Under the pieces are notes generated by a model that was not told the DNA's origin, did no database searches, and saw only the letters and a program-made list of their open reading frames with translations. Of a stretch of 64,000 nucleotides of DNA, positions 2,477 through 39,997 are shown in pieces; the stretch's first letter is position 1; each line of letters opens with the position of its first letter. Source of the stretch: Mediterranea sp. An20 (GTDB lineage Bacteria > Bacteroidota > Bacteroidia > Bacteroidales > Bacteroidaceae); assembly GCF_002160055.1 (NCBI RefSeq), contig NZ_NFJV01000003.1, positions 1 to 64,000 of the forward strand, given 5' to 3'. The translations under genes and the position numbers were made by a program.

Positions 2477-2513
2477 AAAAAGATAATTCATATATACGCC
2501 TTATAAGACCCAA

Positions 2514-2601
2514 AAAGCAGTCCGATTCTTATATATTAGGACTCCGCTTCTTATATATGAGCACCCCACTTCCTAGCGCTTTGGCATTTGCTTCTTATAT
2601 A
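2514..2601 (-). repeat. 22-bp tandem repeat array A (4 units)
   Basis: Four head-to-tail 22-bp units, read on the minus strand, at 2580-2601, 2558-2579, 2536-2557 and 2514-2535. Three begin TATATAAGAA and one begins GCGCTAGGAAG. A fifth, poorer unit may lie at 2492-2513. The same phase and core (ATAAG at unit positions 4-8, AG at 10-11) recur in arrays at 9661, 23224, 33260 and 39910. This 363-base stretch between divergent genes contains no gene. Confidence 0.75.
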
Positions 2602-2718
2602 TAAGAGATTTGTTCACGCTCCACGTCCATTTCTTTTTCGCTCCTTGTCTGGTGTATTTCTGTAAAATAGGTTAGATATTCTGTAGTTTGTATAGATGAC
2701 ACATTGCTAAAGTTTTCT

Positions 2719-2726
2719 TACCTTTG
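2719..2726 (+). promoter_or_regulatory. -7 box for iron-sulphur operon
   Basis: TACCTTTG, 40 bases upstream of the ATG at 2767. A TTTG lies at 2687-2690, but the spacing (28) is longer than the usual 18-20, so only the -7 element is convincing. Confidence 0.5.
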
Positions 2727-2766
2727 CAACCGATAGGATTCATATACAGCTTAAACACTAACTATT

Positions 2767-4272
2767 ATGTTACGCAAATTAAGACTAACGCTGGCCATTT
2801 TATTTTTTACCTACATCACACTGCTGTTTCTCGACTTCACGGGAAGCGCGCATCTGTGGTTCGGCTGGATGGCCAAGATTCAATTTCTGCCTGCCGTTCT
2901 GGCACTGAATGCAGGCATCATTGTCCTGTTGGTAATACTGACCTTAGTATTGGGTCGTGTGTATTGTTCGGTCATCTGCCCGCTGGGTGTGTTTCAGGAC
3001 ATAGTCTCATGGATAAACGGACGGCGCAAGAAGAAAAAATACCGTTTTTCTTATTCGCCTGCCTTGTCATGGCTCCGCTACGGGGTGTTGGGCGTGTTTG
3101 TTGTCGCCCTGCTGGCAGGCATCGGTTCGCTGGTAGCCCTGCTGGCCCCATACAGTTCCTACGGCCGTATTGCCGCCAACCTGTTCGCACCGGTGTACCG
3201 TTGGGGCAACAACCTGTTGGCTTACTTCGCCGAACGCGCCGACAGCTACGCCTTTTACTCCACAGACGTATGGCTGAAAAGCTTGCCCACATTCTTCATT
3301 GCCCTGGCAACGGTGATGATACTTATCGTGCTTGCCTGGCGCAACGGACGCACCTACTGCAACACCATCTGTCCGGTGGGCACGGTATTGGGGTTCCTCT
3401 CCCGGTTTGCCTTGTTCCGCATCACAATTGATACAGCCAAATGCAACTCGTGCACCCTCTGCTCACGCCATTGCAAGGCTGCCTGCATCAACTCTAAAGC
3501 GCATCAGATAGACTATAGCCGCTGCGTGGCCTGCATGGACTGCATAGACACATGCAAACACGGAGCCATCAGCTATCGTTATGCTTATGGCAAGCACAAG
3601 CCGGCTGTGGCTCCCAGCCCCGAGCAACCCAGCAACGAAGGCGGGAACTCACGACGTAGCTTCCTGACTGCCACTGCATTGGTAGCTGCCACTGCATTGG
3701 TCAAGGCACAAGAAAAGAAGGTAGACGGAGGACTGGCCGCCATAGAAGATAAAAAGATTCCCGACCGCCAGACTCCCATCCTGCCCCCAGGAGCACAAAG
3801 CGCCCGCCATTTTGCCCAACATTGCACGGGGTGCCAACTCTGCGTGTCGGCCTGCCCCAACGGCGTGCTGCGCCCGTCCACCAATCTGATGAAACTGATG
3901 CAGCCCGAAATGTCTTACGAACGCGGTTACTGCCGCCCCGAATGCAAACGCTGCTCCGAAGTATGTCCCACGGGCGCCATACACCTGACTGACTTGGCAG
4001 AAAAGGTATCTACACAGGTAGGACATGCCGTATGGGTAAAAGAAAACTGTGTGCCCCTGACCGACGGCGTAGACTGCGGCAACTGTGCCCGCCACTGTCC
4101 GTCGGGAGCCATACAGATGATTCCCTCCGACCCGTCCGATCCGGACTCGCCGAAAATTCCCGCCATCAACGTGGAGAGGTGCATCGGCTGTGGAGCCTGC
4201 GAGAACCTGTGCCCTGCCCGCCCCTTCAGCGCCATCTATGTAGAAGGACACGAAGTGCAACACATTGTATAA
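2767..4272 (+). CDS. NapH/NapG-like fused 4Fe-4S membrane protein
   Basis: A 501-residue iron-sulphur electron-transfer protein. Residues 1-210 are membrane-embedded, with helices near 7-24, 44-66, 103-127 and 175-191 and two CxxxCP motifs (CSVICPLG at 67-74, CNTICPVG at 198-205) as in NapH-type quinol oxidases. Residues 226-266 hold two 4Fe-4S motifs (CNSCTLCSRHC and CVACMDC...C). An internal SRRSFL twin-arginine motif followed by a hydrophobic alanine-rich stretch (295-314) precedes a second, NapG-like ferredoxin part with four more clusters (about 353-482, e.g. CTGCQLCVSAC, CGNCARHC, CIGCGACENLC). This looks like NapH joined to NapG. It lies 30 bases upstream of a ferredoxin-type aldo/keto reductase, which it may supply with electrons or accept them from. 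The substrate is unknown. Confidence 0.8.
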   Translation: MLRKLRLTLAILFFTYITLLFLDFTGSAHLWFGWMAKIQFLPAVLALNAGIIVLLVILTLVLGRVYCSVICPLGVFQDIVSWINGRRKKKKYRFSYSPALSWLRYGVLGVFVVALLAGIGSLVALLAPYSSYGRIAANLFAPVYRWGNNLLAYFAERADSYAFYSTDVWLKSLPTFFIALATVMILIVLAWRNGRTYCNTICPVGTVLGFLSRFALFRITIDTAKCNSCTLCSRHCKAACINSKAHQIDYSRCVACMDCIDTCKHGAISYRYAYGKHKPAVAPSPEQPSNEGGNSRRSFLTATALVAATALVKAQEKKVDGGLAAIEDKKIPDRQTPILPPGAQSARHFAQHCTGCQLCVSACPNGVLRPSTNLMKLMQPEMSYERGYCRPECKRCSEVCPTGAIHLTDLAEKVSTQVGHAVWVKENCVPLTDGVDCGNCARHCPSGAIQMIPSDPSDPDSPKIPAINVERCIGCGACENLCPARPFSAIYVEGHEVQHIV

Positions 4273-4302
4273 ACCCGGATACCAAACATAACGCTCAAGA
4301 CA

Positions 4303-5751
4303 ATGGACAAAAAGCAAAACAAGGCAATCAGCCGCCGCGACTTTCTGAAAACAGCCGGAGCTGCCGGACTGGCTTCAGCTGGATTATATGCCTGCCACAA
4401 CGCCTCCAACCCTGCCGGCAAGAACAAGGCAGATACGGCCATCACCGGAGAAATGACTTACCGGACAAACCCGAAAACGGGCGACCGGGTATCGCTATTG
4501 GGTTTCGGCATGATGAGACTGCCGTCGGTAGGTGGAAGAAGCGCCCGCGAAGGTAACGAAGAAATTGACCAGGAAACCGTGAACCAACTGGTAGACTATG
4601 CACTGGAACATGGTGTGAACTACTTCGATACCTCCCCCGCTTATTGCCGCGGAGGCTCGGAACGCGCCACAGGTATCGCACTAAGCCGACATCCCAGAGA
4701 CAAATACTTCATTGCCACCAAACTGAGTAACTTCGCGCCATCTACATGGAGCCGCGAAGCCTCTATCGCCATGTACCAGAACTCGCTGAAACAACTGCAG
4801 ACTGACTACATAGACTACCTGCTTCTGCATGGCATAGGCATGGGGAGAGATGGCATGAAGGAATTTGAAGCACGCTATATAGACAATGGTGTATTGGACT
4901 ACTTGATGGAAGAACGACGTGCCGGACGTATCCGCAACCTCGGCTTCTCTTACCACGGCGACATCCGCGTGTTCGACCATCTGCTTGCCGAACACGACCG
5001 CTACCAATGGGACTTCGTACAGATACAACTGAACTACCTGGACTGGAAGTATGCCAAGCAAATCAACCCGACAAACACAAATGCCGAATATCTGTACAAC
5101 GAACTTGCTAAACGACACATACCCGCCGTCATCATGGAGCCGCTGTTGGGGGGACGGTTAAGCAATGTGCCCGACCGCATTGTGGCAAGACTGAAACAAC
5201 GCGAACCAGAACGCAGCATAGCCTCATGGGCTTTCCGCTTTGCAGGAAGTTTTCCCGACGTGCTGACCGTACTAAGCGGTATGACACGCATGGAGCACCT
5301 GCAAGACAACCTCTCTACCTACTCGCCCCTGAAAGCGCTGACCGACGATGAGTTCGACTTCCTGCAACAGACCGCCACCCAGATGATGCAGTTTGACACT
5401 ATCCCCTGCAACGACTGCAAATACTGTATGCCCTGCCCTTATGGAATTGATATTCCTGCATTGCTGCTGCACTATAATAAGTGCCTCAACGAGGGAAACA
5501 TCATCGCCGACCCGCAAGACGAAGACTACCAGCGTGCCCGCCGTGCTTACCTCATAGGCTACGACCGCAGCGTGCCTAAATTGAGACAGGCCGACCATTG
5601 CATCGGATGTAATCAATGCAGCCCGCACTGCCCGCAAGGCATCAACATCCCACACGAATTGCACCGCATCGCGCACTATGTGGACAATCTGAAGCAGGAA
5701 AAAACGGGAGGCAAAAGACAACAGCATCGCCGGCGTAGAGGCTGGCAATAG
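4303..5751 (+). CDS. Tat-signal aldo/keto reductase with 4Fe-4S domain
   Basis: A 482-residue oxidoreductase. The N-terminus carries a twin-arginine signal (SRRDFLKTAGAAG, residues 10-22) ending in LYAC, so export by Tat and possibly lipidation at Cys31 are likely. Residues 60-370 form an aldo/keto reductase barrel: FDTSPAY with Asp109 and Tyr114, Lys140 in FIATK, and a His in the DYLLLHG strand, matching the catalytic Asp/Tyr/Lys/His set. The C-terminus has two 4Fe-4S motifs, CNDCKYCMPCPYGI and CIGCNQCSPHCPQGI. This domain order is typical of clostridial and Bacteroidales ferredoxin-linked reductases. It is transcribed with the NapH/NapG-like gene 30 bases upstream. The natural substrate is not evident. 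Confidence 0.85.
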   Translation: MDKKQNKAISRRDFLKTAGAAGLASAGLYACHNASNPAGKNKADTAITGEMTYRTNPKTGDRVSLLGFGMMRLPSVGGRSAREGNEEIDQETVNQLVDYALEHGVNYFDTSPAYCRGGSERATGIALSRHPRDKYFIATKLSNFAPSTWSREASIAMYQNSLKQLQTDYIDYLLLHGIGMGRDGMKEFEARYIDNGVLDYLMEERRAGRIRNLGFSYHGDIRVFDHLLAEHDRYQWDFVQIQLNYLDWKYAKQINPTNTNAEYLYNELAKRHIPAVIMEPLLGGRLSNVPDRIVARLKQREPERSIASWAFRFAGSFPDVLTVLSGMTRMEHLQDNLSTYSPLKALTDDEFDFLQQTATQMMQFDTIPCNDCKYCMPCPYGIDIPALLLHYNKCLNEGNIIADPQDEDYQRARRAYLIGYDRSVPKLRQADHCIGCNQCSPHCPQGINIPHELHRIAHYVDNLKQEKTGGKRQQHRRRRGWQ

Positions 5752-5762
5752 CCGTCCTCACC

Positions 5763-7277
5763 TCAGAATTGGAAGTAGATGAATGGCTGGATGTCTGCAC
5801 TCTTCATCTGAATAACCACATAAATCAAAGCAATCAGCAACAGCGCCTTTCCCAACAGGGGGAGGCGCGTTACTGTTTTTACCCCTGCTTCTTCCCAACT
5901 GTCGGGCAGGAAATGCAACACAAAGCCTAAAGCCATCAATGCGAATACAGCCGGATAACCAGCCAGAAGCTGCGGCAAAAGTTCGGGATGGAAGGCCGTA
6001 CCTATCTGCTGAATCATAGACATGGCATCAGTAAAGGAGGCATGGCGGAAGAATATCCAGCAGAAACACACGAAATGAAACGTTACAACCACGCCCAATA
6101 CCCGACGGATTCCCCGGCTTTGCCAACCCTTAGGACGACCCATAAACTGCATCCAGGCTTTATGCAAAGCCAGAGCCACACCGTGCAGCATGCCCCACAA
6201 GACGAAATTCCACGAGGCTCCATGCCACAGACCACCCAAAAACATAGTGATGATAAGGTTGACATACTGCCTCAATTTACCCTTGCGGTTACCCCCCAGC
6301 GATATATAGAGATAATCGCGCAGCCACGACGAGAGTGAGATGTGCCATCTACGCCAGAATTCCGTAACCGAAGCCGACTTGTAGGGCGAACGGAAGTTGA
6401 TATTGAAATGAAAACCCAGTAGCAGTGCCAAACCGATAGCCATGTCGCTATAACCCGAGAAGTCGCAATATATCTGCAAGGCATAACCATAGACTCCCAG
6501 TAAATTCTCCACGCCCGAATAGAGCGTAGGATTATCGAAGATACGTTCTACAAAGTTCACACTGATGTAGTCCGAGATAACTGCCTTCTTGAACAAACCG
6601 CTAAAAATGAGGAAAACGCCCCGACCGAACATCTCGGGCGAAACATTGAGCGGGCGGCGTATCTGAGGCAGGAAGTCGCGGGCACGCACAATAGGCCCCG
6701 CCACCAACTGCGGAAAGAAGGATACATAAAAAGCGTAGTCCAGCAGATTGGTAAGAGGTCTGATTTCTTTCCGGTAAACGTCGATGGTATAGCTGAGCGA
6801 CTGAAAGGTGAAGAACGAGATACCCACAGGCAGAAAGATATCCAATGCCGTAAATGTCCCGCCCGTCAGCGAAGCCCAGACCTCACCCAGAAAGTTGGTG
6901 TACTTGAAGTAGGCCAACAGCCCCAGATTGACCGTCAGACTCAGCACCACCCAGGCCTTACGCTGCCACTGTACCGATGCGCGTTCCATCAGCCGGGCAA
7001 TGCAGAAATCGCTCACCGTAACCACGGCCAGCAGGAAGAAATACATGCCGCTGCTCTTATAATAGAAGTAATAAGAGAAAGCTGTAACGAAAAGCAGGCG
7101 GGCCGTCATACGCCGCTGCAACAGCAGATAGACTACCGCAAAGGCGGCAAACAACCAGACAAAAAGTCCGCTGCTGAAGATGAGGGGAGCGTGCGGGTCG
7201 TATAGGAAGACATCACGCAGGCGGGCCAGGTCAATATCGAGTCCGGCAAGGAGTTCATTCAGATTCCACATAATCAT
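5763..7277 (-). CDS. MBOAT family O-acyltransferase (AlgI/PatA-like)
   Basis: A 504-residue polytopic membrane protein of the membrane-bound O-acyltransferase family, close in layout to AlgI, DltB and PatA. Visible hallmarks are the SYTIDVYRKEI segment, the FFPQLVAGPIVRA segment, the WHISLSSWLRDYLYISLGG block and the catalytic-His region FLGGLWHGASWNFVLWG. Such proteins carry acetyl groups across the inner membrane to an exported polymer. The gene overlaps the end of the upstream SGNH gene by 23 bases, so translation is probably coupled. Two ATGs (7277 and 7271) are possible starts. The three-gene arrangement suggests an exopolysaccharide or peptidoglycan O-acetylation machine; the polymer is not shown by the sequence. 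Confidence 0.9.
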   Translation of the reverse strand: MIMWNLNELLAGLDIDLARLRDVFLYDPHAPLIFSSGLFVWLFAAFAVVYLLLQRRMTARLLFVTAFSYYFYYKSSGMYFFLLAVVTVSDFCIARLMERASVQWQRKAWVVLSLTVNLGLLAYFKYTNFLGEVWASLTGGTFTALDIFLPVGISFFTFQSLSYTIDVYRKEIRPLTNLLDYAFYVSFFPQLVAGPIVRARDFLPQIRRPLNVSPEMFGRGVFLIFSGLFKKAVISDYISVNFVERIFDNPTLYSGVENLLGVYGYALQIYCDFSGYSDMAIGLALLLGFHFNINFRSPYKSASVTEFWRRWHISLSSWLRDYLYISLGGNRKGKLRQYVNLIITMFLGGLWHGASWNFVLWGMLHGVALALHKAWMQFMGRPKGWQSRGIRRVLGVVVTFHFVCFCWIFFRHASFTDAMSMIQQIGTAFHPELLPQLLAGYPAVFALMALGFVLHFLPDSWEEAGVKTVTRLPLLGKALLLIALIYVVIQMKSADIQPFIYFQF

Positions 7278-8160
7278 TATAGGCTTTTAAAAGAGCATGA
7301 AACAACAATCGCCCTTGCAGGTCGTAGCCTTCGGGCAAGAAATGAATATGGTCGGGACGCATCAGACCGGCTTCCCACCAGTTGCGGCAGGCACGTCTCG
7401 CGCCGCCTCCTATTTCGTACAGGTTCCATAGAGCCAGACCGTTGTCGTCGGCAAAGCGGCGCATGGTCTGCACGGCAACCTGGGTACGCGGATTGATGCG
7501 GTAGACTCGGCGACGAACCCGCTCATAGGCACCAGGCGGGGTGGTCAGCAACATCGGCACATGAGGCAAAGCCTGCTGCAACAGCCGTACCAGCTGCGCC
7601 ATTTGTCTATAGTGCAGACTGGAAAGGTAACGGCGGTTGTGTGCTTCGTTGGTGCCGAAAGACAAAATCAGCAGGTCGGGATGCAAGGCCGCCACTGCTT
7701 CCACACGTTCAGGGCGGGTAAAGCTGCGGCAGGTGGCACCGTTGATGCCCATATCGATATAAGTAAGAGCACCGAACACCTGCTGCAACAGCGTCCCCGT
7801 GGTTTGCGGAAAGATATGTCCGCGCACATGGCTGTCGCCGATATGGACAATGCAGATTGTATCGTCCGAAGCACCGGCATGCAGCAGACGCAATTTCTCC
7901 CAAAATGGATTGAGCAGACCGACACTGTCCGTCAGATAGTTATCTGTCGTTTGAAGGAAAGCGGAGGGGAACGCCAGCGGAGGCACAGCCACCGTGTCTG
8001 TCCGTGCCGAATAAAGGGGCAGCGTATCGCACACCGCCATGACTGCCGGAACGGCCGGGAGGGGAGGCAGAGCGTCCTGCGCCCACAGCTTTCCGCAAAC
8101 AGAAAGAACCAGGCAAACCAGCAGTGCTCTCATACGGCACCTGCACTTACTCTGCTTCAT
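7255..8160 (-). CDS. Secreted SGNH/GDSL-type hydrolase
   Basis: A 301-residue exported protein. After a short basic N-terminus, a hydrophobic signal (MRALLVCLVLSVCGKLWAQ) is followed by an SGNH fold: block I HIGDSHVRG, a Gly-containing block near GINGATC, block III SFGTNEAHN and block V DHIHFLPEG. These supply the Ser, Gly, Asn and Asp/His catalytic set. The start at 8160 was chosen because its ATG overlaps the stop of the upstream gene (14-base overlap); an upstream in-frame start adds 11 atypical residues. Between an SGNH gene and an MBOAT gene, the likely role is moving or removing acetyl groups on an extracytoplasmic polymer, like AlgX/AlgJ or PatB. Confidence 0.85.
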   Translation of the reverse strand: MKQSKCRCRMRALLVCLVLSVCGKLWAQDALPPLPAVPAVMAVCDTLPLYSARTDTVAVPPLAFPSAFLQTTDNYLTDSVGLLNPFWEKLRLLHAGASDDTICIVHIGDSHVRGHIFPQTTGTLLQQVFGALTYIDMGINGATCRSFTRPERVEAVAALHPDLLILSFGTNEAHNRRYLSSLHYRQMAQLVRLLQQALPHVPMLLTTPPGAYERVRRRVYRINPRTQVAVQTMRRFADDNGLALWNLYEIGGGARRACRNWWEAGLMRPDHIHFLPEGYDLQGRLLFHALLKAYNDYVESE

Positions 8161-9514
8161 AAGCACGCCTCCTGTCGTATTCCTTCTTGCCATGCACCAA
8201 TGCTTCGTAGAGCAACCCGGCTAAGTGCTCGCCTCCGCGAAAGTTGATGTGTGTATAATCTTTGTTGGCCATAGGGGGCTGCGCCTCTACCAGTCCGGCC
8301 ATGCTCAGGTTGCCCCCCATCGCTTCAAAGAGATTCCAGAAGGCGATGCCATTGTCGGCCGCCAGATTCTGTTGGTAGCGCACTAAGTTGCGTATGCCCG
8401 GCATGGTGCGCAGGTTACCGTCTTCATCCTTGTAGTCGCGGTCACCCACCCCCACCAGCAGGATAGAGGCTTGGGGAAAAGCTGCTTTCAGATGTCCGAT
8501 TGTGGTATTCATGCCGGCGGCGTAGCGGTCGTAGTTTTTGCCGCGCTCGGTAGCGATGTTCAGGCCATATTGCAGCACGATAAGGTCGTAGGGCCGCAGG
8601 CGGTTGAAGTCGCTCAGACGTTCTTGAGGAATGCTGCGGATGGAGAGTCCCGTTGAGCCGCGCAGAGAGAGGTTGTCCAGCACGATACCCTGGTCGCCGT
8701 CCATGCTGAGTCCGTAGAATACGGCAGAATCGGCCTGCTGCACCGTCCAGCGCACTTGCCCGATGCGTCCCTCCACGCGAGCCGTCTGCACGTGTGCCGA
8801 AGGGGCGAAGGTCTGTGTCTGTGCCGCTCCCCGGTTCCGGCTTACAGCCAGCTCCACCGTTTGGGAACTGAGGAAGAAGAGGGTTGCCTCCCGACAGGTA
8901 TCCAAATGGGCAGCGTAGTCTTTCTGTCCGCGCAGTTCGACGTAAGCACCCGGTCGGGGCAGGAAGTAACGCCCCGCCATGCCCTGAAGCTTGGCGTCAA
9001 AGCCCAGACTGTCTGTCCAGGCATGGCTCTGCCAGCCGTCGAAAGCATGGCGCACGGTAGGACGGAAACCGTAGGTCTGCGAGGTAATGTCTACATAGCC
9101 CACGCCGCAGCCACCGTAACGCTCCTGCAACAAGTGGCGCAGGTCGGCCGTGAAAATATCTCCTTCGATAAACGAATCGCCGAAGTAGGCAATGCGCACG
9201 GGCCGGCTGCCTGCCTCGTCCAGGGCACGGTAGAAGGCTTCCATACCCCGGTGCGTGCTGTCGCCATAGTCTTCAATGCAGGTCATGCCCGGCGGACAGG
9301 AGTCCACAAAGGCAGGCTTCACCTTGGGTGGCGGGGGCAACAACGAGTCGGGGTCGTCTACGGGTGGGGCAAGGCGGCGCACATCCGACAGCAAGTCCAC
9401 GCGCCTCATCCGATGTCCGCCCACCTCCAGCGCGGGCAGAAGGTGCATCAGCAGCAGGGCAGCCAGCACCAGGCAGGCCAGCAGGGCGGTATTTCGCAAA
9501 ACGTTCTTTTTCAT
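8147..9514 (-). CDS. Membrane-anchored SGNH hydrolase-like protein
   Basis: A 455-residue protein with one N-terminal membrane anchor (about residues 8-28) and a proline-rich linker (LLPPPPKVKP), then an extracytoplasmic SGNH domain: AYFGDSFIEGD (block I), LQYGLNIAT (block III) and DYTHINFRGG (block V). A beta-rich insert between blocks I and III (about 150-290) probably binds carbohydrate. It is the first gene of the acetylation operon, overlapping the next SGNH gene by 14 bases. A -7 box lies at 9549-9556. Together with the MBOAT protein it resembles alginate- or peptidoglycan-O-acetylation systems that use two SGNH partners. Which of the two is the active transferase cannot be told. Confidence 0.85.
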   Translation of the reverse strand: MKKNVLRNTALLACLVLAALLLMHLLPALEVGGHRMRRVDLLSDVRRLAPPVDDPDSLLPPPPKVKPAFVDSCPPGMTCIEDYGDSTHRGMEAFYRALDEAGSRPVRIAYFGDSFIEGDIFTADLRHLLQERYGGCGVGYVDITSQTYGFRPTVRHAFDGWQSHAWTDSLGFDAKLQGMAGRYFLPRPGAYVELRGQKDYAAHLDTCREATLFFLSSQTVELAVSRNRGAAQTQTFAPSAHVQTARVEGRIGQVRWTVQQADSAVFYGLSMDGDQGIVLDNLSLRGSTGLSIRSIPQERLSDFNRLRPYDLIVLQYGLNIATERGKNYDRYAAGMNTTIGHLKAAFPQASILLVGVGDRDYKDEDGNLRTMPGIRNLVRYQQNLAADNGIAFWNLFEAMGGNLSMAGLVEAQPPMANKDYTHINFRGGEHLAGLLYEALVHGKKEYDRRRAYEAE

Positions 9515-9548
9515 ATATTCATTCCTAACGCTTATTTCTATCAGACCG

Positions 9549-9556
9549 CAAAGATA
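9549..9556 (-). promoter_or_regulatory. -7 box for SGNH/MBOAT operon
   Basis: Minus-strand TATCTTTG, 35 bases upstream of the ATG at 9514. It is the only promoter-like signal for the three-gene acetylation operon. Confidence 0.55.
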
Positions 9557-9660
9557 TAACTATAGACGGAATTAGTATGCAGACAGGAGGAAGAAACTTG
9601 CAGAAAGAGCTGGGAAGAAAGGAGCTGGAAAAGAAGAAAGACATTCCCTTCTGCTGCAAA

Positions 9661-9726
9661 GCGATAAGCACCGCGCTGCAAAGCAATAGGCACCGCGCTG
9701 CAAAGCGATAAGCAGTACGCTACTTA
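9661..9726 (+). repeat. 22-bp tandem repeat array B (3 units)
   Basis: Three 22-bp units at 9661-9682, 9683-9704 and 9705-9726. The first two are nearly identical (GCGATAAGCACCGCGCTGCA then AA; GCAATAGGCACC in the second). The third keeps GCGATAAGCAG. The array lies in the 349-base gap between the divergent SGNH operon and the gene at 9864, which otherwise holds only promoter-like sequence. Confidence 0.8.
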
Positions 9727-9863
9727 GCCTATAAGGCCGGAACGCTGTTGCATACGGGCACAATCCTGCCCTGACTGAAAAAAAATGTGCCCTTTCCACT
9801 GGCATGACTGCAAAATAATGATTTACTTTGCAACAGAATAACCTGCGGAAAATACCATAACCT

Positions 9864-14397: not shown

Positions 14398-14505
14398 TGA
14401 CCGAAGAATCTGCCGAGCAAAAACAGCGCGTACCCATTCTTCATTTATCACTCTTCATTCTTCAACCTATTATTCATTCTTAATCCTTCATTCTTCATTT
14501 AAAAG

Positions 14506-15770: not shown

Positions 15771-15882
15771 AGCTATAGGCTACGAGCTACAAGCTACGAG
15801 CTACAAGCTACGGGTTACGAGTTACGAGTAGCCACACACTAAGAACTAAAGTCACTATACTTGTAGCTCGTAGCTCATAGCT
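15771..15882. repeat. Tandem 14-bp repeat and inverted repeat, hutI-fchA gap
   Basis: A run of near-identical 14-bp units (GCTACGAGCTACAA) occupies about 15779-15832. A 23-base arm at 15771-15793 is matched, with two mismatches, by its complement at 15860-15882, so the transcript can fold into a long hairpin. It lies inside the hut operon between two genes. Confidence 0.75.
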
Positions 15883-22720: not shown

Positions 22721-22872
22721 TCGGTCTATGCCCAAGATACTGAAAATAAAGAATGCCAACGGCCACAGCCAGTATGTGGGCAGGAAGACAAGCATCCACC
22801 GGTCAGCATGGTAGGACATGCGAAGGTGTCGCCCGTCAGGAGCAGTCCGTTCACTCAATCAGTCTAAAGTGC

Positions 22873-22956
22873 CACTTTACGCCGCTGAAATGGCACTTTA
22901 CGCCGCTAAAATGCAGGTTTAGCCGCATAACTCTAAGGTTTACGCTACGCAGCCAT
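22873..22956 (+). repeat. 21-bp tandem repeat (4 units, 2 strong)
   Basis: CACTTTACGCCGCTGAAATG at 22873 and CACTTTACGCCGCTAAAATG at 22894 repeat with a 21-base period, followed by two weaker units (AGGTTTAGCCGCATAACTCT and AGGTTTACGCTACGCAGCCA). The sequence differs from the 22-bp arrays. It starts the 1.4-kb gene-free stretch 22721-24110. Confidence 0.65.
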
Positions 22957-23223
22957 GACGGGTTGACAAAACAGTGACACTTTCATTTTTTGCCGGTGCT
23001 TCAGATGCCCGTTTGCAGTGTATGATGCTGTGGTTATGCCTTTGCATCCGATGTTTCACACCCCTCTATATAAGTTTTTCCGTTCCTTCCCTTCACGCTT
23101 TCACCGCCATCTAATTCAGTAGTTGTCAGCATATTGATGTGAAACATCGTGCTCTCACGCATCTTTCACAGCCTTCCGCTTGTGATTTTCTTGTGTTGTC
23201 CTGATAAACCGGTCAGCTTTCAG

Positions 23224-23289
23224 GCGCTTGGAAGCTTCCTTCCGGGATATAAGAAGTTTGCTTTCAAAGTATAAGCAGTTTTTCCCCAA
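23224..23289 (+). repeat. 22-bp tandem repeat array C (3 units)
   Basis: Units at 23224-23245 (GCGCTTGGAAG...), 23246-23267 (GATATAAGAAG...) and 23268-23289 (AGTATAAGCAG...). Phase and core match arrays A, B, D and E. It lies in the gap between the HxlR gene and the beta-helix gene. Confidence 0.65.
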
Positions 23290-26303: not shown

Positions 26304-26439
26304 TTATTCATTTTAATTATGCTAAAAGAGTAAAAAATAGCGAAGGCAACCAGTCTCCCGACTCATTCACCTCCTTACCAAGAATTTTAAATAAACAAAA
26401 TATCGAATATCTTATTTCTTATGTATTCCGGAAGATGAG

Positions 26440-26546
26440 GTGATTTAAACTTTCCGCACCGCCATGCCACAACCGCACATACCGGCTATTCCGGCAAGCT
26501 CTCCGCAGGAAGTTGCCAGGCGATAAGCAGCCAAAGTTTAAATCAC
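26440..26546. repeat. Perfect 14-bp inverted repeat, 107-bp span
   Basis: GTGATTTAAACTTT (26440-26453) and its exact complement (26533-26546) flank 79 bases that include a single 22-bp-array-type unit GCGATAAGCAGC (26520). Extra pairing continues outward (AAGATGA/TCATCTT). It fills the gap between convergent genes at 24111-26180 and 26596-28617. No gene is seen in 26181-26595. Confidence 0.65.
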
Positions 26547-26595
26547 ACTCTGTCATCTTACCATTACCCTAAACAATAATACCTGTGAAAACTGT

Positions 26596-28617: not shown

Positions 28618-28629
28618 GTCATTCCAGTT

Positions 28630-31940: not shown

Positions 31941-32166
31941 AAGACATCTTAATAAACCTAATTGCCATAAACGACCTGCTTTTTTCCTATTGAGAAACAG
32001 CCGAAGTTTTTTTATTCATTCGGAAACAAGTCTTGTTTATTTAGAAATAAACTACTATTATTCAAATAGTTATAAACATAGTAAAAGAAAACAGGGAAGA
32101 CTTGCCGAAGAAGTATTCCGTAAACAGAGTTTTGTCGATTAAAACAAGCCGTTTATCTATTTTGCA

Positions 32167-32196
32167 TTTGATATACTTACAAAAAATCTACATTTG
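32167..32196 (+). promoter_or_regulatory. Full promoter for AraC gene
   Basis: TTTG (32167-32170), 18-base spacer, TACATTTG (32189-32196), a close match to the Bacteroides -33/-7 consensus, 28 bases upstream of the AraC ATG. Confidence 0.7.
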
Positions 32197-32224
32197 CGTC
32201 CATAACGCATAACTTACATTAACT

Positions 32225-33103
32225 ATGAGAACAGAAATGCAAGACATCACAGCTGACATGGCTCCGGACATGAAAAACAACAATCCGGGAATTCAATTCC
32301 GCGAAATCGGAACGAGTTACATATATAATAGTATGGACATCTCAACGGACTACCGAAATGCCCAGCTATTTGTCGTAGATGGGAACATACAGGCCTTCAT
32401 TGGCAATAAGAAATACGACTTGCAGCGCGGAGACTTTGCCGACATCATCAAACAGACGTTCAGGCTGAGCCACATCTCCTCTGATGCCCGTGCATTCTTA
32501 CTGTTGCAGACCGACGACTTCATGCAGAACCTATTCACCCAGAAGCCGCCTTTCTCGCCTGCCTATATGCTGCACACGTTCAACTATCCGGTCAAGCAAC
32601 TCAAGCCGCAAGACTATGCCATAGTCATACGGGGAATGGAAGACCTGCACCAGACCATCACGCAACGAGTCAGCCGATTCACCCAAGACATCATCAGGCA
32701 CAAGACACAGATATTCTTCCTGGAAATGGCTAACCTGCTGGACAAAGAAGAGGCAAGAAACATGCCTGAATGTTCGAACAAACAAAAAAAGCAGTTTGCC
32801 GACTTCATCAACCTGCTGGAAACTGACATCTGCCACAACCACACTGTCAGTTATTACGCCAAATGCCTCCACATTTCTCCGCAGTACCTGCGCCGCATTG
32901 TCAAAGAAGTTTCCGGAGACAACGCCTACCAGCTTATCAGCAAATTCCTGCTGAAAGAAATCTGCCATCTGCTGCGGGGCACCCATCTGTCCATACAGGA
33001 AATTGCCGACCGCCTGCACTTCTCCGACCAGGCTGTGATGAGCAAATTCTTCAAGCGCAACAAGGGGATACCCCCGCTGAAATACCGCAACGAACAACGG
33101 TGA
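32225..33103 (+). CDS. AraC-family regulator next to susCD
   Basis: A 292-residue regulator. The N-terminal part (residues 1-180) is a cupin-like ligand domain as in short AraC proteins (QLFVVDGNIQAFIGNKKYDL). The C-terminus has two helix-turn-helix motifs: HNHTVSYYAKCLHISPQYLR and LSIQEIADRLHFSDQAVMSK, ending in FFKRNKGIPPLKYRNE. It is soluble, unlike the hybrid two-component or membrane-spanning regulators usual beside susCD. Its position, divergent from susC, makes it the likely regulator of the glycan locus. Its ligand is unknown. Confidence 0.9.
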   Translation: MRTEMQDITADMAPDMKNNNPGIQFREIGTSYIYNSMDISTDYRNAQLFVVDGNIQAFIGNKKYDLQRGDFADIIKQTFRLSHISSDARAFLLLQTDDFMQNLFTQKPPFSPAYMLHTFNYPVKQLKPQDYAIVIRGMEDLHQTITQRVSRFTQDIIRHKTQIFFLEMANLLDKEEARNMPECSNKQKKQFADFINLLETDICHNHTVSYYAKCLHISPQYLRRIVKEVSGDNAYQLISKFLLKEICHLLRGTHLSIQEIADRLHFSDQAVMSKFFKRNKGIPPLKYRNEQR

Positions 33104-33259
33104 AGATGTCACCAGACCGGAACGTCCGTTACGCCAACCGCCCTCCCACAGGCCAAGCCCGACCGTTTGAGGCTCGTCTGTTTTCGTTTCCTCAAAATAT
33201 TTTATCCGGCACAAAGGGCGTAAGGGACGTTCCGGCCTCTCTTCCTGAAAAACAGCCGG

Positions 33260-33347
33260 GCTATAAGCAGCCTGCTTCTAAGCGATAAGCACCGAACTCC
33301 CAGGATATAAGCAGCACGCTTGTTATATATACGAAGCAGTGCGCTGA
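33260..33347 (+). repeat. 22-bp tandem repeat array D (4 units)
   Basis: Units at 33260-33281 (GCTATAAGCAGC...), 33282-33303 (GCGATAAGCACC...), 33304-33325 (GATATAAGCAGC...) and 33326-33347 (TATATACGAAGC...); a fifth weak unit follows. It lies in the 470-base gap 33104-33573 between the AraC gene and the TPR/kinase-like gene, and nothing else stands out there. Confidence 0.8.
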
Positions 33348-33573
33348 CTATCAGGAAGATAAAATCCAATCTATTCCTTGAAAGAAAAGTCTAAACCGGC
33401 GTTCCCTATCAGACTGGCCACATGCCTCCACGGCCTTCCCCCGGCGCCGTCTGCACCTCCAGACTGTCGGGCAGGGTTCTCTACAAATTATTTTTCTGAA
33501 AGAAAAAAACAAGCAAGCGCACAAACTATGAAAGAATATCGTAACTTTACGGGCAAACAAAACGAAAAACCTT

Positions 33574-35082
33574 ATGAGAAAAGTTATCAATTACCTAATT
33601 TTTATAGCTTTATGCTATTGCTGCCCGTCTGTTACAGCCCAAGGGAAAGGCGATGAACTCATGAAACAAGCCCATGAAAGTCTGACACAACAAGACTATA
33701 TCCGAGCGCGATATATGTATCTTCAGGCTTACAATGCCTATGCAGGAGACAACCTGTACGAGAAAGCCGTGCGCTGCGGGGTAGAAGCCGCCGCCCTTTA
33801 CCACCGCGAGAACTATTACAAAGAAGCTTTCCAGCTGCTTTTCAACATAGAACAGGCCCTCATCGCCGGCGAACAGAAGACCGGCCAGTCCATGCCCGCC
33901 CTGCGCTACCCCGTGACGCGCGAACGTCTGCGCATGTACATCAAACTGCGCAACACAGCCCGCGCCAAAGAACAACTGGACAAATTGGAGGGATGGGCAC
34001 AGGCCGCACAAGTAGACTCTCTCAACACCAACCTGCTCTACACGCAAGCCAACTATTATTATACCTTCGGACAAAACACGCAGGGCGACAAAGCATTCAA
34101 CAAACTGGTGGCTCTCTACTCCCAACAAAAGGATTACGACAAGGCCGAAGCATGCTACAAAGAAATGATTGACATGGGCAGGCGGGCAGGCAACACTGCC
34201 ATGCTGGCACGTGCCTACGAACGATACATGGCATGGAACGACTCGACTGCCGCCCTCATGGCACAAGACAAGTACAACGAACTCAAAGCGCAATACGATG
34301 GCAGCCTGCAAACCATCGAGGAAAAGGACCACTCACTGGCCACACGCCAATATACCATCATCGGATTGTGCATACTGGCTGTCATCCTGGCTGCCGCGCT
34401 GGTACTGGGAGGCATCGTGCTGATGCGATTCATCCTGCTGACACGCAAACAGAAGAAAATCATAGAAACCGTCAACGAACACAACGCGCAGAAGACGAAG
34501 TTCATCCGCAATATCTCCACCCAGATGCAACCCACGCTGGACACGCTGGATGCCCGCCAGCCGGGTGTGCAGGCACTGAAAGACTTTACCGCCCACATTG
34601 AAGAACTTTCGGCCCTGGAAGACTCGCTGGACTCTCCATACGAAATGGAAGAAACCAACGTGTCGACGTTCTGTGAAGGTCTGATGGACCGGATTCGCGA
34701 AGAGGTGAAACCGAATGTGACACTGACCGTCAACGCCCCCAAACTGATGGTGCGCCTCAACAAGGAACATACTGCCAAAATCCTGCTCCACCTCCTGCAA
34801 AACGCTGCCGGACATACGCCTGCCGAAGGCAAAATCTGGCTGGACTTCAAGAAACGTGGCGCGCACACCCATCAGTTCGTGGTGACCGATACGGGAAACG
34901 GCATTTCGGAGACTGCCCGCGAGAATCTCTTCAAACCTTTCAGCGAAGTGAAAGACCTGACGCAGGGCGACGGACTGGGGTTGCCCATCTGCGCGCTGGA
35001 AGCCACGAAGATGAACGGTAGCCTGTCGCTGGACACAGACTATACCAAGGGGGCACGCTTCGTGCTGGAACTGCATGCATAA
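33574..35082 (+). CDS. TPR sensor protein with kinase-type ATPase domain lacking the phospho-His
   Basis: A 502-residue protein with a signal peptide (residues 1-22), a periplasmic TPR solenoid (about 25-250, e.g. YIRARYMYLQAYNAYAGDNL), one membrane helix (about 263-290) and a cytoplasmic part. The DHp-type helix is at 309-321 (FIRNISTQMQPTL), where histidine kinases have His after IS; here it is Thr, so phosphotransfer is unlikely. The HATPase_c domain is intact: LLHLLQNAAGHT (N box), VTDTGNGIS (G1), GDGLGLPIC (G2). Downstream 38 bases is a TlpA-like lipoprotein, a linkage that suggests a redox- or peptide-sensing pair. It may act through protein contacts rather than phosphorylation. Confidence 0.8.
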   Translation: MRKVINYLIFIALCYCCPSVTAQGKGDELMKQAHESLTQQDYIRARYMYLQAYNAYAGDNLYEKAVRCGVEAAALYHRENYYKEAFQLLFNIEQALIAGEQKTGQSMPALRYPVTRERLRMYIKLRNTARAKEQLDKLEGWAQAAQVDSLNTNLLYTQANYYYTFGQNTQGDKAFNKLVALYSQQKDYDKAEACYKEMIDMGRRAGNTAMLARAYERYMAWNDSTAALMAQDKYNELKAQYDGSLQTIEEKDHSLATRQYTIIGLCILAVILAAALVLGGIVLMRFILLTRKQKKIIETVNEHNAQKTKFIRNISTQMQPTLDTLDARQPGVQALKDFTAHIEELSALEDSLDSPYEMEETNVSTFCEGLMDRIREEVKPNVTLTVNAPKLMVRLNKEHTAKILLHLLQNAAGHTPAEGKIWLDFKKRGAHTHQFVVTDTGNGISETARENLFKPFSEVKDLTQGDGLGLPICALEATKMNGSLSLDTDYTKGARFVLELHA

Positions 35083-35120
35083 GTAATCTCTAATCATATC
35101 ATTTAAAAAAACTCAGGAAC

Positions 35121-37010
35121 ATGAAAATCAGAACTTTGCTTTCCACATGGGCTCTCCCGGCCCTGATGCTGGGCGCCTGCCAAAGCGGTCCCCGCGTGGT
35201 AGAGAACCCGCTGATTGAAACATCCAACACCATGACCCTCGACATTACTCGGGTGGAACTGACGGACACGGCAACGATCCTGCAGGTCGATGCCTACTTT
35301 ACGCCACACTATTGGATAAGAATCTCCTCAGACACTTATCTTAATGCCGGAGGAAAAAAGTATGCCCTGACCAAAGCTACCGGCATCACACCCGACTCGC
35401 TCTTCTGGATGCCGGAATCCGGCGAAGCTTCTTTCCAACTGACTTTCCAACCGCTGCCGCTACGTACCCGGTCGTTCGACTTCATTGAATCCGACTGCGA
35501 TGACTGCTTCAAGCTGTTCGGTATCGACCTGACCGGAAAGAAAACATACGACGCTCCGGAAGACATCCCGGCCGAAGCCATGCAGGTGGATGGCAATGCT
35601 GCCATGCCCGCCCCCATCTTCAAAAGTGGGGAAACAACCGTAGAAGTACACCTGCTTCATTACCGGCCGGAACTGGGCAAGGAAATAGCACTCTACCTCA
35701 ACACCCTGAGCGGCAATCAGGAAGAGCACACCGCCAACATCGACCCGGAAACAGGTATCGCAACCTTCCGCTTTAAACAATATGGACCTGCACAGGCTCT
35801 GATTTCCACACCGGCACACTGGGGCTGCACGGCAAGGATTGCCCCCGGCGAACAGCTCTCCATCTATATCGACATGCGACATAGCGGACAACGCATCGTA
35901 AGCCGACGCACAGAAGGAGCAGCGCCTCTCTCACGTTTCTGCTACGCCACCGGCACGTATGCCAACCTCAACAACCTGTACTTTGCACTCAGCGGCTCCC
36001 ATGTCCCCCTACGCACCATGAACCTCTATAACGGCGAGTTTGCAGACTATAAGATGAGTGCCAAGGACTATGTAGCACACGTGGCAGACAAATACAAAGC
36101 CTTGTCGGACAGCATAGCCGCCGACACTGTGCCGCCGCTCATGAAAGAATCGATGCTGCTGTCGCTCAAAGAAGAAGCCGTCACTGCCATGCTGCGGGGC
36201 GATTTCTTCCGCGAACACAACTACCGGGCTCTGAACAATGACTGGGAGAACCCGGTGAAAGGCATCGACAGGATGACTCCTGAAGAGAAAGCCGAGGTGT
36301 GCAAACTGTTTGATATTAACGACCCCATGCTGTTGATGAGCGATTATGCCGACGATTACCTGCGCGCTGTCATGTATGCCGACGATGCCTGGCTGAAAGC
36401 CACCGGCATCCAGACCGGATTGATTCCTTCGCTACGCAAATATGCCCGCCTCGCCCCTAAAGTGCAAAATGGCACACTGACCGACGACGACCTGAATATA
36501 TTCGGAACAAACGACGACCCATTCTATGCCGACGCCCTCCGGCAAATGCAGGCAGAGACCGTCGCCAAACTGGAAGCCGTGAAAGACAAGGCCATCATCG
36601 AGCAGACCCCCGATGTACCGGTGGAGAAACTGTTTGACACACTCATTGCTCCCTACAAGGGCAAGGTGGTGTTCGTTGACTTCTGGAACACTTGGTGCGG
36701 TCCCTGCCGCGCTTCCATCAAGGCCAACGAACCGCTGAAGGCAACGGAACTGAAGAGTGAAAACTTGGTATGGCTCTACATAGCCAACGAGACATCGCCC
36801 CTTGTGCAATACAAGACCATGATTCCCGGCATTCAGGGCAAACACTTCCGCCTGAACGAGCAGCAATGGAGGTATCTCTGCGACAAATTCCAGATAGACG
36901 GCATCCCGTCGTATGTGCTGGTGAAGAAAGACGGAACGTACGAGCTGCGCAACGACCTGCGCGACCATGACCTGTTGCAGAAGACCCTGAAAGAAGAGAT
37001 TGCCCGATAA
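35121..37010 (+). CDS. TlpA-like thioredoxin-domain lipoprotein
   Basis: A 629-residue lipoprotein with a lipobox (LMLGAC, Cys20). The N-terminal 500 residues are a large, unrecognised beta-rich region with some helices. The C-terminal thioredoxin fold begins near residue 510: VFVDFWNTWCGPCRAS carries the CxxC active site at about 525-528, and IDGIPSYVLVKKDG has the cis-proline. Such proteins reduce disulphides in the periplasm. It lies 38 bases after a TPR/HATPase gene and is probably co-transcribed. The role of the large N-terminal part is unknown, perhaps substrate binding. A strong hairpin (37033-37098) follows. Confidence 0.85.
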   Translation: MKIRTLLSTWALPALMLGACQSGPRVVENPLIETSNTMTLDITRVELTDTATILQVDAYFTPHYWIRISSDTYLNAGGKKYALTKATGITPDSLFWMPESGEASFQLTFQPLPLRTRSFDFIESDCDDCFKLFGIDLTGKKTYDAPEDIPAEAMQVDGNAAMPAPIFKSGETTVEVHLLHYRPELGKEIALYLNTLSGNQEEHTANIDPETGIATFRFKQYGPAQALISTPAHWGCTARIAPGEQLSIYIDMRHSGQRIVSRRTEGAAPLSRFCYATGTYANLNNLYFALSGSHVPLRTMNLYNGEFADYKMSAKDYVAHVADKYKALSDSIAADTVPPLMKESMLLSLKEEAVTAMLRGDFFREHNYRALNNDWENPVKGIDRMTPEEKAEVCKLFDINDPMLLMSDYADDYLRAVMYADDAWLKATGIQTGLIPSLRKYARLAPKVQNGTLTDDDLNIFGTNDDPFYADALRQMQAETVAKLEAVKDKAIIEQTPDVPVEKLFDTLIAPYKGKVVFVDFWNTWCGPCRASIKANEPLKATELKSENLVWLYIANETSPLVQYKTMIPGIQGKHFRLNEQQWRYLCDKFQIDGIPSYVLVKKDGTYELRNDLRDHDLLQKTLKEEIAR

Positions 37011-37032
37011 AGGCAGTTTTTTCCTATATAAC

Positions 37033-37098
37033 CAGGCGCGGACGGCACCGCATTTTACAGAAAAACAAAATCCGCAGAATGCGCGCCGTCCGCGCCTG
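37033..37098. terminator. 14-bp perfect stem between convergent genes
   Basis: CAGGCGCGGACGGC (37033-37046) and its exact complement (37085-37098) enclose a 38-base AT-rich loop. It sits between the convergent genes ending at 37010 and 37116. There is no T-run, so it may be a barrier or an mRNA 3'-end hairpin rather than a classical terminator. Confidence 0.5.
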
Positions 37099-37115
37099 AA
37101 TGTTGTTACTGCCCC

Positions 37116-38321
37116 CTACTTCTTATACTTCATCAGCATCAGCACCGGGTTGTCCTCCGCATCCAAACGGGAGGCGAGATCTTTCAGCGGACCGTCGTTC
37201 AGCTTACCGTCTTCATAGGCAGCGACCAGTCGGTGAGCCATCATGGGAAGAAAGGCCGCCACGTCGCCACTGTTTACAGGGAAAGCACACAAATCCACAA
37301 GATCATCTTCTCCGCGGACAAAGTCGGCATTACGCACAAGCGAAGTATAGCACCGCCCTTCCCGACGGTCATACACCAGGTTGGATACCTGGAAAATGTC
37401 TGAGATACTAACCGCCGTGCTTCCCTGTTCCATTTCTTTCGTGATAACCCGCTCCATAAACCAATAACGGTCGGCCATCACCCCTATCCCCAACATCCGG
37501 TCGAAGTCTTCGGTGGTCTTCCTCAACAAAAAAGGCTCCATGCGTTGCCCATCTGTCAGGTAATTATAGACAGTGTCCGACGAGGTTTCCACCAGCAGCC
37601 AGTTTCCCCGGTTGGGTACAATAGCCGGCAAATGGGAAACCAACATCGACACCATCCTTCCGTTCTCCCGTCGCAGCGAAACCGGTGCATGTATTTCATC
37701 GAAAGATACAGGCAGGGGGCGAACGACCTTACCGTCTGTTTTCGAAATAAGGAAGTGATAATAAGGTTTGTCGCGCGGTTCGCCGTCTTTCAGGTAAATG
37801 GACTTGTCATAGACCATCAGATGCTGCTCGTCATAATTGTCCACGAAGCCATAGTCGGCCTCAGCCGCATAAGGAAGGCTACGCCTGAAACTGCCGTCAC
37901 GCATGCTATACACCTGTATCTTCCGTCCGGCACTGTCTATCACAAACAGTTCGTCGTTGGCATCGTCCGGGATAACGTCATCAGCACAGGAGTAATCTTC
38001 CGGTCCTTTCCCCAACTGATTCATCTTCAGCAATCCTTTACCCGTTCTCCGGTCAAACAAGATTATACTTCCCACTTCGTGCATCGGGTCGACGGTCACG
38101 ATGTAATGCCCGCTCACGGCTAACACGAATCCACCTACCAAAAACTCATCGTTCGTCTCCAGTGGCACATACTCCACATCGAAGAGGTCCTGCGCCACAA
38201 ATTCTTTCTCAGGATAGTCTTTGCTCAAGTCAATGACGGGCAATGCCTCTGGCGCTCCCGCCTGCCGGCAACCCGCAAGAACCAACAGCGCCATGATACC
38301 TAACCACTTTCTCTTTCTCAT
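37116..38321 (-). CDS. 6-bladed beta-propeller lipoprotein
   Basis: A 401-residue lipoprotein (LLVLAGC, lipidated Cys18). The order PVIDLSKDYPEKEFVAQDLF, DVEYVPLETNDEFL and GHYIVTVDPMHEVGSIILFD, then NQLGKGPEDYSCADDVIPDD and DELFVIDSAGRKIQVYSMRD, is the Bacteroidales 6-bladed beta-propeller family (DUF4934-type). These proteins sit in the periplasm or outer membrane; their ligand is generally unknown. The gene is transcribed alone, towards the TlpA-like gene. Confidence 0.85.
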   Translation of the reverse strand: MRKRKWLGIMALLVLAGCRQAGAPEALPVIDLSKDYPEKEFVAQDLFDVEYVPLETNDEFLVGGFVLAVSGHYIVTVDPMHEVGSIILFDRRTGKGLLKMNQLGKGPEDYSCADDVIPDDANDELFVIDSAGRKIQVYSMRDGSFRRSLPYAAEADYGFVDNYDEQHLMVYDKSIYLKDGEPRDKPYYHFLISKTDGKVVRPLPVSFDEIHAPVSLRRENGRMVSMLVSHLPAIVPNRGNWLLVETSSDTVYNYLTDGQRMEPFLLRKTTEDFDRMLGIGVMADRYWFMERVITKEMEQGSTAVSISDIFQVSNLVYDRREGRCYTSLVRNADFVRGEDDLVDLCAFPVNSGDVAAFLPMMAHRLVAAYEDGKLNDGPLKDLASRLDAEDNPVLMLMKYKK

Positions 38322-38418
38322 AAAAGACTTATTGTTTATGGGGAAAATGTTGAGACGTCACCTGATGGCGTCCCAACTCCACCCGATGGTTATTTTCATT
38401 GATGGTATGGTAGCATCT

Positions 38419-39792
38419 CTACCGCATCGCTTCCACTTCGTCCGGCGTCAACGGAATCTTCTTGCCCAGGCGGCGGGCACCGGTCTCGGTGATGAGGTAG
38501 TCTTCTTCGTTGCGGATGCCGCCGAAGTGACGGTATTCCTCCACCTTATCGTAATTGATGAAGTCCGTAAACTTGCCCTGACCGCGCCACAGGTCGATGA
38601 GTTCGGGGATGAAGTAGATGCCCGGCTCCACGGTGTGCACAAAGCCCGGTTGCAGGGGGATGGCCAGCCGCTGGCTCTTGCGGCCGAACTGCGTGCTCTT
38701 GGGCTGGCCGTCGTAGCCCACCCAGATTTCGCCCAGGTTCTCCATGTCGTGCACATCCAGTCCCATCATATGACCCAGTCCGTGGGGATAGAACAGCGCG
38801 TGGGCGCCTTCGCGCACGGCATCTTCGGCATTGCCCTTCATCAGGCCCAGTTCCTTCAGTCCCTCCACCATGACGCGGGCCGAAAGGTCATAGACATCCA
38901 TATAGGGAATGCCGGGTCGCAGAGCCTTGACGCTCTCCAAGTGCATGGCGTTCTGGATTTCGTAGACCGCACGCTGGCGCGGGGTGAACGTTTTCGAAAC
39001 GGGGATGGTAGACGACATGTCTCCGCAATAGCCCGACGGCAATTCGGCACCGGCGTCGATAAGGAAGAGCTGTCCCTCTTCGATGCGGTTGCCGTGGTAA
39101 TGATTGTGCAGGGTCTGTCCGTTGATGGAGGCAATGGTGGCGAAAGACAATTCGCAGTTATGGCTTTCGGCCACGTGGTTCATTTCGGCCACCACCTCAT
39201 ACTCGTACATCCCCGGCCGGATGCAGCGCGTAGCGGCGATGTGCATGTCGGCAGTGATGTCGCAGGCGCGTTCTATCTCGGCAATCTCCTCTGCGGTCTT
39301 CACGTTACGCTGTGCCACGATGGCGCGGATGAAGGGCACGGAGCCTTCCTGATGCGAAGGAGGCACACCCAGCCAGTCCATCAGTTTCAATTTGTGTTCG
39401 GCGCGGTAGGGCGGCAGGTAGTGTATGGTACGCCCCTGCTGCACGGCACGGTGCAGGTAGTCCGCCAGTTGGACAGAAGGCAGTGTCTCCGTAATGCCCA
39501 CGGCAGAAGCCTTCTCACGCAGAGTGGGCTGGGTACCCATCCAGACAATGTAGTCAATGGAAAGCTCATCGCCGAAGATGATTTCCCGGTTCTCATCAAT
39601 GTCGATAACGGCGTTCAGTCCGGCAAAGGAAAGCCCGAAATAGTAAAGGAACGAGGAGTCCTGACGGTAACGGAACGTGTTGTCCTCGTAATTCAAACCC
39701 TGTTCATCGTTGCCCAGAAACAGCAACACGCCGCTGCCCACGGCTTTTTTCAGCACATCGCGGCGCTGCACGTAAGTGTCTTTTGAAAACAT
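38419..39792 (-). CDS. pepP: Xaa-Pro aminopeptidase (aminopeptidase P)
   Basis: A 457-residue metallopeptidase of the M24B family that removes N-terminal residues preceding proline. The pita-bread metal site is complete: LIDAGAEL and YCGDMSSTIPV (two Asp), HGLGHMMGLDVHD (His), VHTVEPGIYF (Glu) and FGGIRNEEDYLIT (Glu). The N-terminal creatinase-like domain is residues 1-190. Two Mn(II) or Zn ions are expected. The gene is monocistronic; upstream lie array E (39910-39997) and a long gene-free stretch that borders the accessory region. The symbol is inferred from family. Confidence 0.93.
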   Translation of the reverse strand: MFSKDTYVQRRDVLKKAVGSGVLLFLGNDEQGLNYEDNTFRYRQDSSFLYYFGLSFAGLNAVIDIDENREIIFGDELSIDYIVWMGTQPTLREKASAVGITETLPSVQLADYLHRAVQQGRTIHYLPPYRAEHKLKLMDWLGVPPSHQEGSVPFIRAIVAQRNVKTAEEIAEIERACDITADMHIAATRCIRPGMYEYEVVAEMNHVAESHNCELSFATIASINGQTLHNHYHGNRIEEGQLFLIDAGAELPSGYCGDMSSTIPVSKTFTPRQRAVYEIQNAMHLESVKALRPGIPYMDVYDLSARVMVEGLKELGLMKGNAEDAVREGAHALFYPHGLGHMMGLDVHDMENLGEIWVGYDGQPKSTQFGRKSQRLAIPLQPGFVHTVEPGIYFIPELIDLWRGQGKFTDFINYDKVEEYRHFGGIRNEEDYLITETGARRLGKKIPLTPDEVEAMR

Positions 39793-39909
39793 AATATTTA
39801 TCTCTTATTATAAAAATAAACAATAAAACTCTGTCTATCTATCTTTCGCTCAGGCGGTTAAACCATTCTCCGTGCAAAGAGGCGGTACAAGTATCTATTC
39901 GTCTGGCAT

Positions 39910-39997
39910 TCAGATGCTTGCTTCTTATATACATCCAGTCTGGTGCTTATCCCTCAGAAGCAGGCTGCTTATCGCTTGGAAGCAGGCCTCATACAGC
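39910..39997 (-). repeat. 22-bp tandem repeat array E (4 units)
   Basis: On the minus strand, units at 39910-39931 (TATATAAGAAGC...), 39932-39953 (GGGATAAGCACC...), 39954-39975 (GCGATAAGCAGC...) and 39976-39997 (weaker). It lies 118 bases upstream of pepP. Confidence 0.8.

Follow-up and report, generated by a model that had tools for sequence, protein, structure and literature searches.

The window, by which we mean the whole stretch of 64,000 nucleotides analysed here, corresponds to bases 1-64000 of contig C23 of the Mediterranea sp. An20 genome (G000; 3.84 Mb in 88 contigs). It carries five arrays and a lone unit of a 22-bp tandem repeat, as the original prediction had stated; all six sites are present, array 3 being weak. 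The genes near them are ordinary and encode DUF418, ferredoxin-type, DUF6563, beta-helix and SusD proteins, as well as an AraC-type regulator, a histidine-kinase ATPase, an M24 peptidase and a GDSL lipase that scores just under its cut-off. The sites, with units assigned to the types A, B and C described below, are:

2503..2612, minus strand: array 1, about five 22-bp units, mostly of the TATATAAG (B) type
9650..9715, plus strand: array 2, three A-type units, then one more at 23 bp
23213..23278, plus strand: array 3, two to three degenerate units, weak
26509-26530, plus strand: lone A unit, inside a 113-bp short form of a MITE-like element (26437..26549)
33249..33396, plus strand: array 4, A-A-A, then B and C type units and part of the tail
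39858..39991, minus strand: array 5, two A units, then B and C type units

Pairs of ATAAG motifs 22, 23 or 44 bp apart occur on the plus strand at 9664, 9708, 23249, 33263 and 33285, and on the minus strand at 39972, 39950, 2598 and 2554; hence, arrays 1 and 5 were assigned to the minus strand. The motifs of array 1 (2598, 2554 and 2532, minus strand) keep a 22/44-bp register, while arrays 2 and 3 have pairs at 23 and 22 bp, respectively. Scores on the unit matrix were 26.8, 18.4 and 26.8 in array 2, 5.8, 7.3 and 14.9 in array 3, 14.7, 30.3 and 13.5 in array 4, 32.0 and 20.7 in array 5, and 23.8 for the lone unit; the best unit of array 3 thereby compares with best scores of 27-32 in arrays 2, 4 and 5. 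The first HMM of the element described below, whose alignment held two reversed rows, gave a poor match at array 1 (2581-2535, E=0.029) and another at array 5 (39984-39858), the latter also being matched at 39991-39885 by the second of our two element models (R1), which was built from 16 elements in corrected orientation. Further model matches cover 9649-9726 at array 2 (model positions 54-131), and 33237-33293 and 33296-33396 at array 4. The 113-bp form around the lone unit has both inverted ends, which depart from GAAGTGATTTAAACTTT at 1 and 3 positions, and its 3-bp flanks differ (GAT/CTG), without a duplication. A search for inverted ends at arrays 4 and 5 found none, and they occur at just one of the six window sites.

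The accessory region (40-64 kb) had been predicted to lack arrays, and it indeed contains none of two or more units; a single unit match (score 14.1) at 45113-45134 falls inside an ORF. Together with bases 64001-124000 of the same contig it forms 84 kb devoid of arrays of at least two 22-bp units and, being unlike the rest of the sampled genome in this respect, is possibly a younger or acquired region. Tandem repeats of other kinds are also present in the window. 1) Heptamer repeats, a class separate from the 22-mers, lie at 14435-14499, 15771-15828 and 15863-15882 (CATTCTT, GCTACGA/AGCTACAAGCTACG and GTAGCTC), and lags of this type (14, 21 and 28) recur in the genus. 2) A second family of G000 with a period of 21 (CTAAAATGGCACTTTACGCCG and similar units, up to 5.7 copies) is represented at 22864-22913 and elsewhere at L050 11480-11598, L120 7897-7988 and L121 13503-13603. 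3) AT-rich tandem tracts (ATATAATT and similar, period 8/16) occur in the accessory part at 47758-47824, 48932-49002 and 49078-49103. The TAACTGA heptamer repeats, as described in the available text of their report, are short intergenic direct repeats of patchy distribution, found in some Bacteroidetes and close to start codons in the main genome studied (PMC4679880); their period of 7 sets them apart from the 22-bp family, and the heptamer arrays of the window are a feature separate from the latter.

Genome-wide, an 18-base core of the unit has 96 matches with up to 3 mismatches, as against none for the reversed pattern, which is an excess above chance. In a 464-kb sample searched at the lowest threshold, same-strand matches to the unit matrix were separated by 22 bp in 25 pairs and by 44 bp in 10, by no other distance up to 100 bp, and the reversed matrix gave no pair at all. 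This strict spacing supports the proposal of one phased family, and hints at protein binding every two turns of DNA. We recovered 85 arrays or single units comprising 166 units: 32 have one unit, 29 two, 20 three and 4 four, such that 53 have two or more. The proposed distinction from CRISPR arrays also holds, as 19 of the 22 positions are conserved to some degree and three bases are free in each unit, which differs from conserved repeats with unique long spacers.

The consensus of the 166 units is NNNGCTTCCAAGCGATAAGCAG. The B-type unit has GCT at positions 4-6, ATAAG at 15-19 and TATAT ahead of the latter, the C-type unit carries TGATTATCA, and the usual order in a full element is A-A-B-C. 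The unit matrix is dyad-symmetric about an axis at 13.5 (p=0.0035 against permuted columns), and the unit can be written as a degenerate dyad of approximately GCTGC-N10-GCAGC, with GCT at positions 4-6 and ATAAG at 15-19. Identity between units is 0.658 within arrays and 0.591 between arrays, and at the three positions outside the matrix it is 0.32/0.37/0.35 within as against 0.32/0.31/0.27 between arrays. Recent local duplication is an unlikely source of the 22-bp units in G000.

Many arrays are embedded in an element of about 207 bp that is bounded by the 17-bp end GAAGTGATTTAAACTTT and its inverse. An inverted pair of ends was present at 26 of the 34 loci examined, one pair being poor, and 21 tested elements span 197-230 bp, a length in keeping with a short, non-coding MITE. 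The 3-bp flanks are identical in 6 of these 21 elements, with 0.75 expected (permutation p=5e-5), and 41 of 63 flank bases agree, with 21.6 expected (0 of 20000 permutations); the test was restricted to elements of 197-230 bp, and the 5 paired loci whose length falls outside this range show no exact 3-bp duplication. Such duplications are a mark of transposition. Thus, part of the 22-bp family was dispersed in the manner of a MITE. Model R1 has at least 149 matches in the genome at E<=0.01 among 150 candidates scored, some of these being halves of one element. In the 16 aligned elements conserved blocks alternate with variable ones: the ends (0.86 and 0.82), the leader core (0.87), the A units (0.89 and 0.88), B (0.81) and C (0.77) contrast with the spacers (0.69-0.71), the variable leader (0.65) and the tail (0.60). 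Since ends or units served to locate the elements, the figures for the ends and A units are inflated, and the comparison is free of bias for the leader core, B, C and tail only.

These features could also be accounted for by a purely selfish element, wherein the units are internal parts of a non-autonomous transposon, for instance binding sites for a transposase or accessory protein, and the end-less arrays are decayed copies with no cellular role. The inverted ends and 3-bp duplications, the 60 matches to the 17-bp end when as many as 3 mismatches are allowed, as against 13 to the reversed control, and the insertion of 17 copies in all gene arrangements (10 between co-oriented, 5 between divergent and 2 between convergent genes) favor such an element. 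However, many other arrays lack the 17-bp ends, including all but one of the window sites, and several of these copies, as placed by the first HMM, cover approximately model positions 76-171, which is the phased block alone. Further, other species have the 22-bp period with other units, as shown below, and among the 60 end matches in this fragmented assembly we noted no inverted pair at the distance of an insertion sequence, nor any long element bounded by these ends. We consider this account possible but rather improbable.

The original prediction held that the arrays should be present in close relatives. We found no close relative of G000, the best shared gene being 76% identical, and the outcome in the genus is mixed: the G000 unit is nearly absent, but other 22-bp units are present. 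When up to 2 mismatches were allowed, three of 36 same-genus genomes had a single match to the core, as did one of 24 genomes of other families, where the control also has one. Under stricter filters the element model matched 6 of 59 other same-genus genomes, with 30 weak matches in G004, 3 in G065 and one each in G011, G066 and G081. Phased units are seen at the G004 loci, with palindromes such as TTGCCAAGCCTTTGGCAA, and at one G065 locus; some other weak matches resemble coding sequence. A strong copy in G070 (E=1.9e-30) lies at a contig end (L248, contig C49, 27-195) in a genome otherwise devoid of the element, and may have been acquired horizontally or stem from a misplaced contig. A search for two cores in phase retrieved 20 stretches from the GTDB set: 8 from Bacteroides sp. 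214, 9 from four Prevotella MAGs and 3 from unrelated bacteria, the last of which may be due to chance. The core GATAAGCA with its 22-bp phase is hence common to G000, Bacteroides sp. 214 and the four Prevotella MAGs. In some arrays of Prevotella and Bacteroides sp. 214 an inverted unit forms a long hairpin with its neighbor (L079 at about 5800-5900, L073 at about 5576-5670 and L081 at about 4812-4900). A viral origin was discarded, as none of the viral contigs searched matches the two-core pattern exactly.

The 22-bp period is more general than the motif. We counted runs, defined as at least 13 of 16 bases repeating at a given lag, outside crude ORFs in 19 to 100 kb from each of 25 other species, and found 81 at lag 22 in 18 species, with units mostly differing between species, 24 at lag 21 in 11 species and no more than 10 at any of the remaining lags between 16 and 30; coding controls had 0-1 at lag 22. 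These species are not independent, because 16 of 19 single stretches and some others surround one orthologous gene; G081 and G097 have one array in common, and G031 and G155 another. The units indicate that lags 14, 21 and 28 are partly heptamer repeats, and copy numbers in other species go up to 8.5, in an array with a 23-bp period. In twenty genomes from other families, covered by 261 kb that includes several very short stretches, we counted 3 runs at lag 22, 5 at lag 23 and 8 at lag 46. Thirty period-22 units of other species, which include near-duplicates from sister species, were more palindromic than shuffled units (5.20 against 4.44; 0/1000), the individual palindromes being weak (among 78 arrays with a period of 21-23, 10 attain 7 of 8 pairs). 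One orthologous promoter region bears 22-bp units that differ between G031/G155 and G102, and lacks such units in G018, G022 and G143, implying that no single array is essential. A clean insertion in G031/G155 was rejected, the region having been replaced instead of simply inserted, and the comparison of G081 with G097 gave no usable empty sites. Between the latter two genomes one 22-bp array is 98.9% conserved as against 84.3% in its flanks, another 94.7% as against 96.3%, and a third gave no alignment; orthologous arrays are therefore not generally under constraint.

A class of constant-size non-coding tandem repeats has been described by Subirana and Messeguer, and is reportedly also the subject of their 2020 paper in J Bacteriol. 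According to the available text of PMC8161180, such repeats are of about 20-23 nt with fixed size and variable sequence, form several families per species without known function, and were proposed to involve a polymerizing protein or small RNAs. The G000 arrays fit within this class, being short, apparently mostly intergenic and constant in size with variable sequence, as illustrated by lag 22 in 18 of 25 species; the runs behind this count lie outside crude ORFs (0-1 in controls), yet in G000 the predicted location between genes is only approximate, as contigs C1 and C23 have 29 arrays or single units, of which 9 overlap a crude ORF (ORFs of at least 270 nt, possibly spurious). The authors required at least 4 repeats, more a search setting than a property, whereas G000 arrays mostly have one to four units (4 of 85 reach four), and the available part of their account mentions neither MITE ends nor a dyad. 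The element resembles BrickBuilt of Porphyromonas gingivalis, a dispersed, species-specific intergenic MITE with a minisatellite between leader and tail and small inverted ends, some copies of which lack leader, tail or both (PMC4596501, available text). As per the same text, the BrickBuilt unit is of 23 nt (AGAYCATARTATCCTCTCRTRTG), its ends are GAGACCTTYGCA-like, similar to those of the IS5 family, and its target duplications are of uneven length; the G000 element shares the arrangement of leader, repeats, tail and inverted ends but has other sequences, a 22-bp period, the ends GAAGTGATTTAAACTTT and 3-bp duplications. Neither this published class nor the inverted ends with their duplications figured in the original prediction, and our search of open-access papers recovered no report on 22-bp repeats of Bacteroides.

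The constancy of the period alongside variable sequences between species, the enrichment of palindromes and the differing number of units between elements (203-230 bp) would also be expected of ordinary minisatellites that arise at short palindromes through slippage or template switching, with the replication machinery setting the period and no binding partner. We regard this as unlikely: neighboring units of G000 are barely more alike than distant ones, and local slippage alone is insufficient because the consensus is common to arrays throughout the genome.

The arrays had been placed mostly near promoters, which is not corroborated, as their contexts track intergenic length: 60 arrays comprise 9 between convergent, 20 between divergent and 31 between co-oriented genes, while the respective intergenic DNA amounts to 19.9, 24.7 and 58.0 kb. 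We accordingly rejected a promoter or terminator element, also in view of the MITE copies in all gene arrangements, and likewise an RNA element, since nothing in the window matches Rfam at gathering scores and the elements share hardly any consensus structure. REP/RAYT systems combine a conserved stem-loop with a companion RAYT gene; as to the stem-loop, the consensus fold is close to empty. That the arrays act as transcribed RNA, either as small RNAs or as promoters or terminators of their neighbors, is very improbable: the available reports describe transcribed satellites in Bacillus coagulans (PMC8625621) and promoter activity of BrickBuilt segments (PMC4596501), but the consensus structure of 17 aligned elements is nearly empty (-2.2 and -3.0 kcal/mol on the two strands, below column shuffles at z -2.8 and -4.3 but tiny), and no gene context is preferred, with 12 same-strand and 19 opposite-strand arrays between co-oriented genes. 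The motif lies on the strand of negative GC skew 36 to 11 times (threshold 20); as column-shuffled matrices at lower thresholds already lean 623 to 454 (58%) towards this strand, we give little weight to a bias with respect to replication.

A periodic protein-binding site is the best explanation of the arrays, and is favored by the dyad symmetry. We put at roughly one half the probability that they constitute a phased row of protein-binding half-sites, dispersed in part by a MITE. Each 22-bp unit is a degenerate dyad-symmetric site; hence, tandem units present half-sites in alternating orientation every 11 bp, or about one helical turn. A dimeric or polymerizing DNA-binding protein would most likely occupy this row, with its geometry fixing the period and the sequence of the arrays drifting with its specificity, and part of the family has been carried to new sites by the MITE-type element of about 207 bp with its 17-bp ends and 3-bp target duplications. 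We prefer half-sites over slippage or RNA because of the fixed period, the dyad, the conservation in blocks and the lack of similarity between neighboring units.

More tentatively, chromosomes of this genus might carry a dispersed lattice of half-sites every 11 bp for a polymerizing protein of fixed geometry and fast-changing sequence preference, which a MITE would have captured in G000 and would be spreading there; the arrays might then organize the chromosome, perhaps with respect to the direction of replication, rather than serve as promoters. The genus offers an entry point to the question of why the size of bacterial satellites stays constant as their sequence changes, in that it combines numerous arrays and a dyad that can be measured with a core motif found across genera and a MITE with target duplications, and with these arrays the idea of a protein ruler becomes directly testable.
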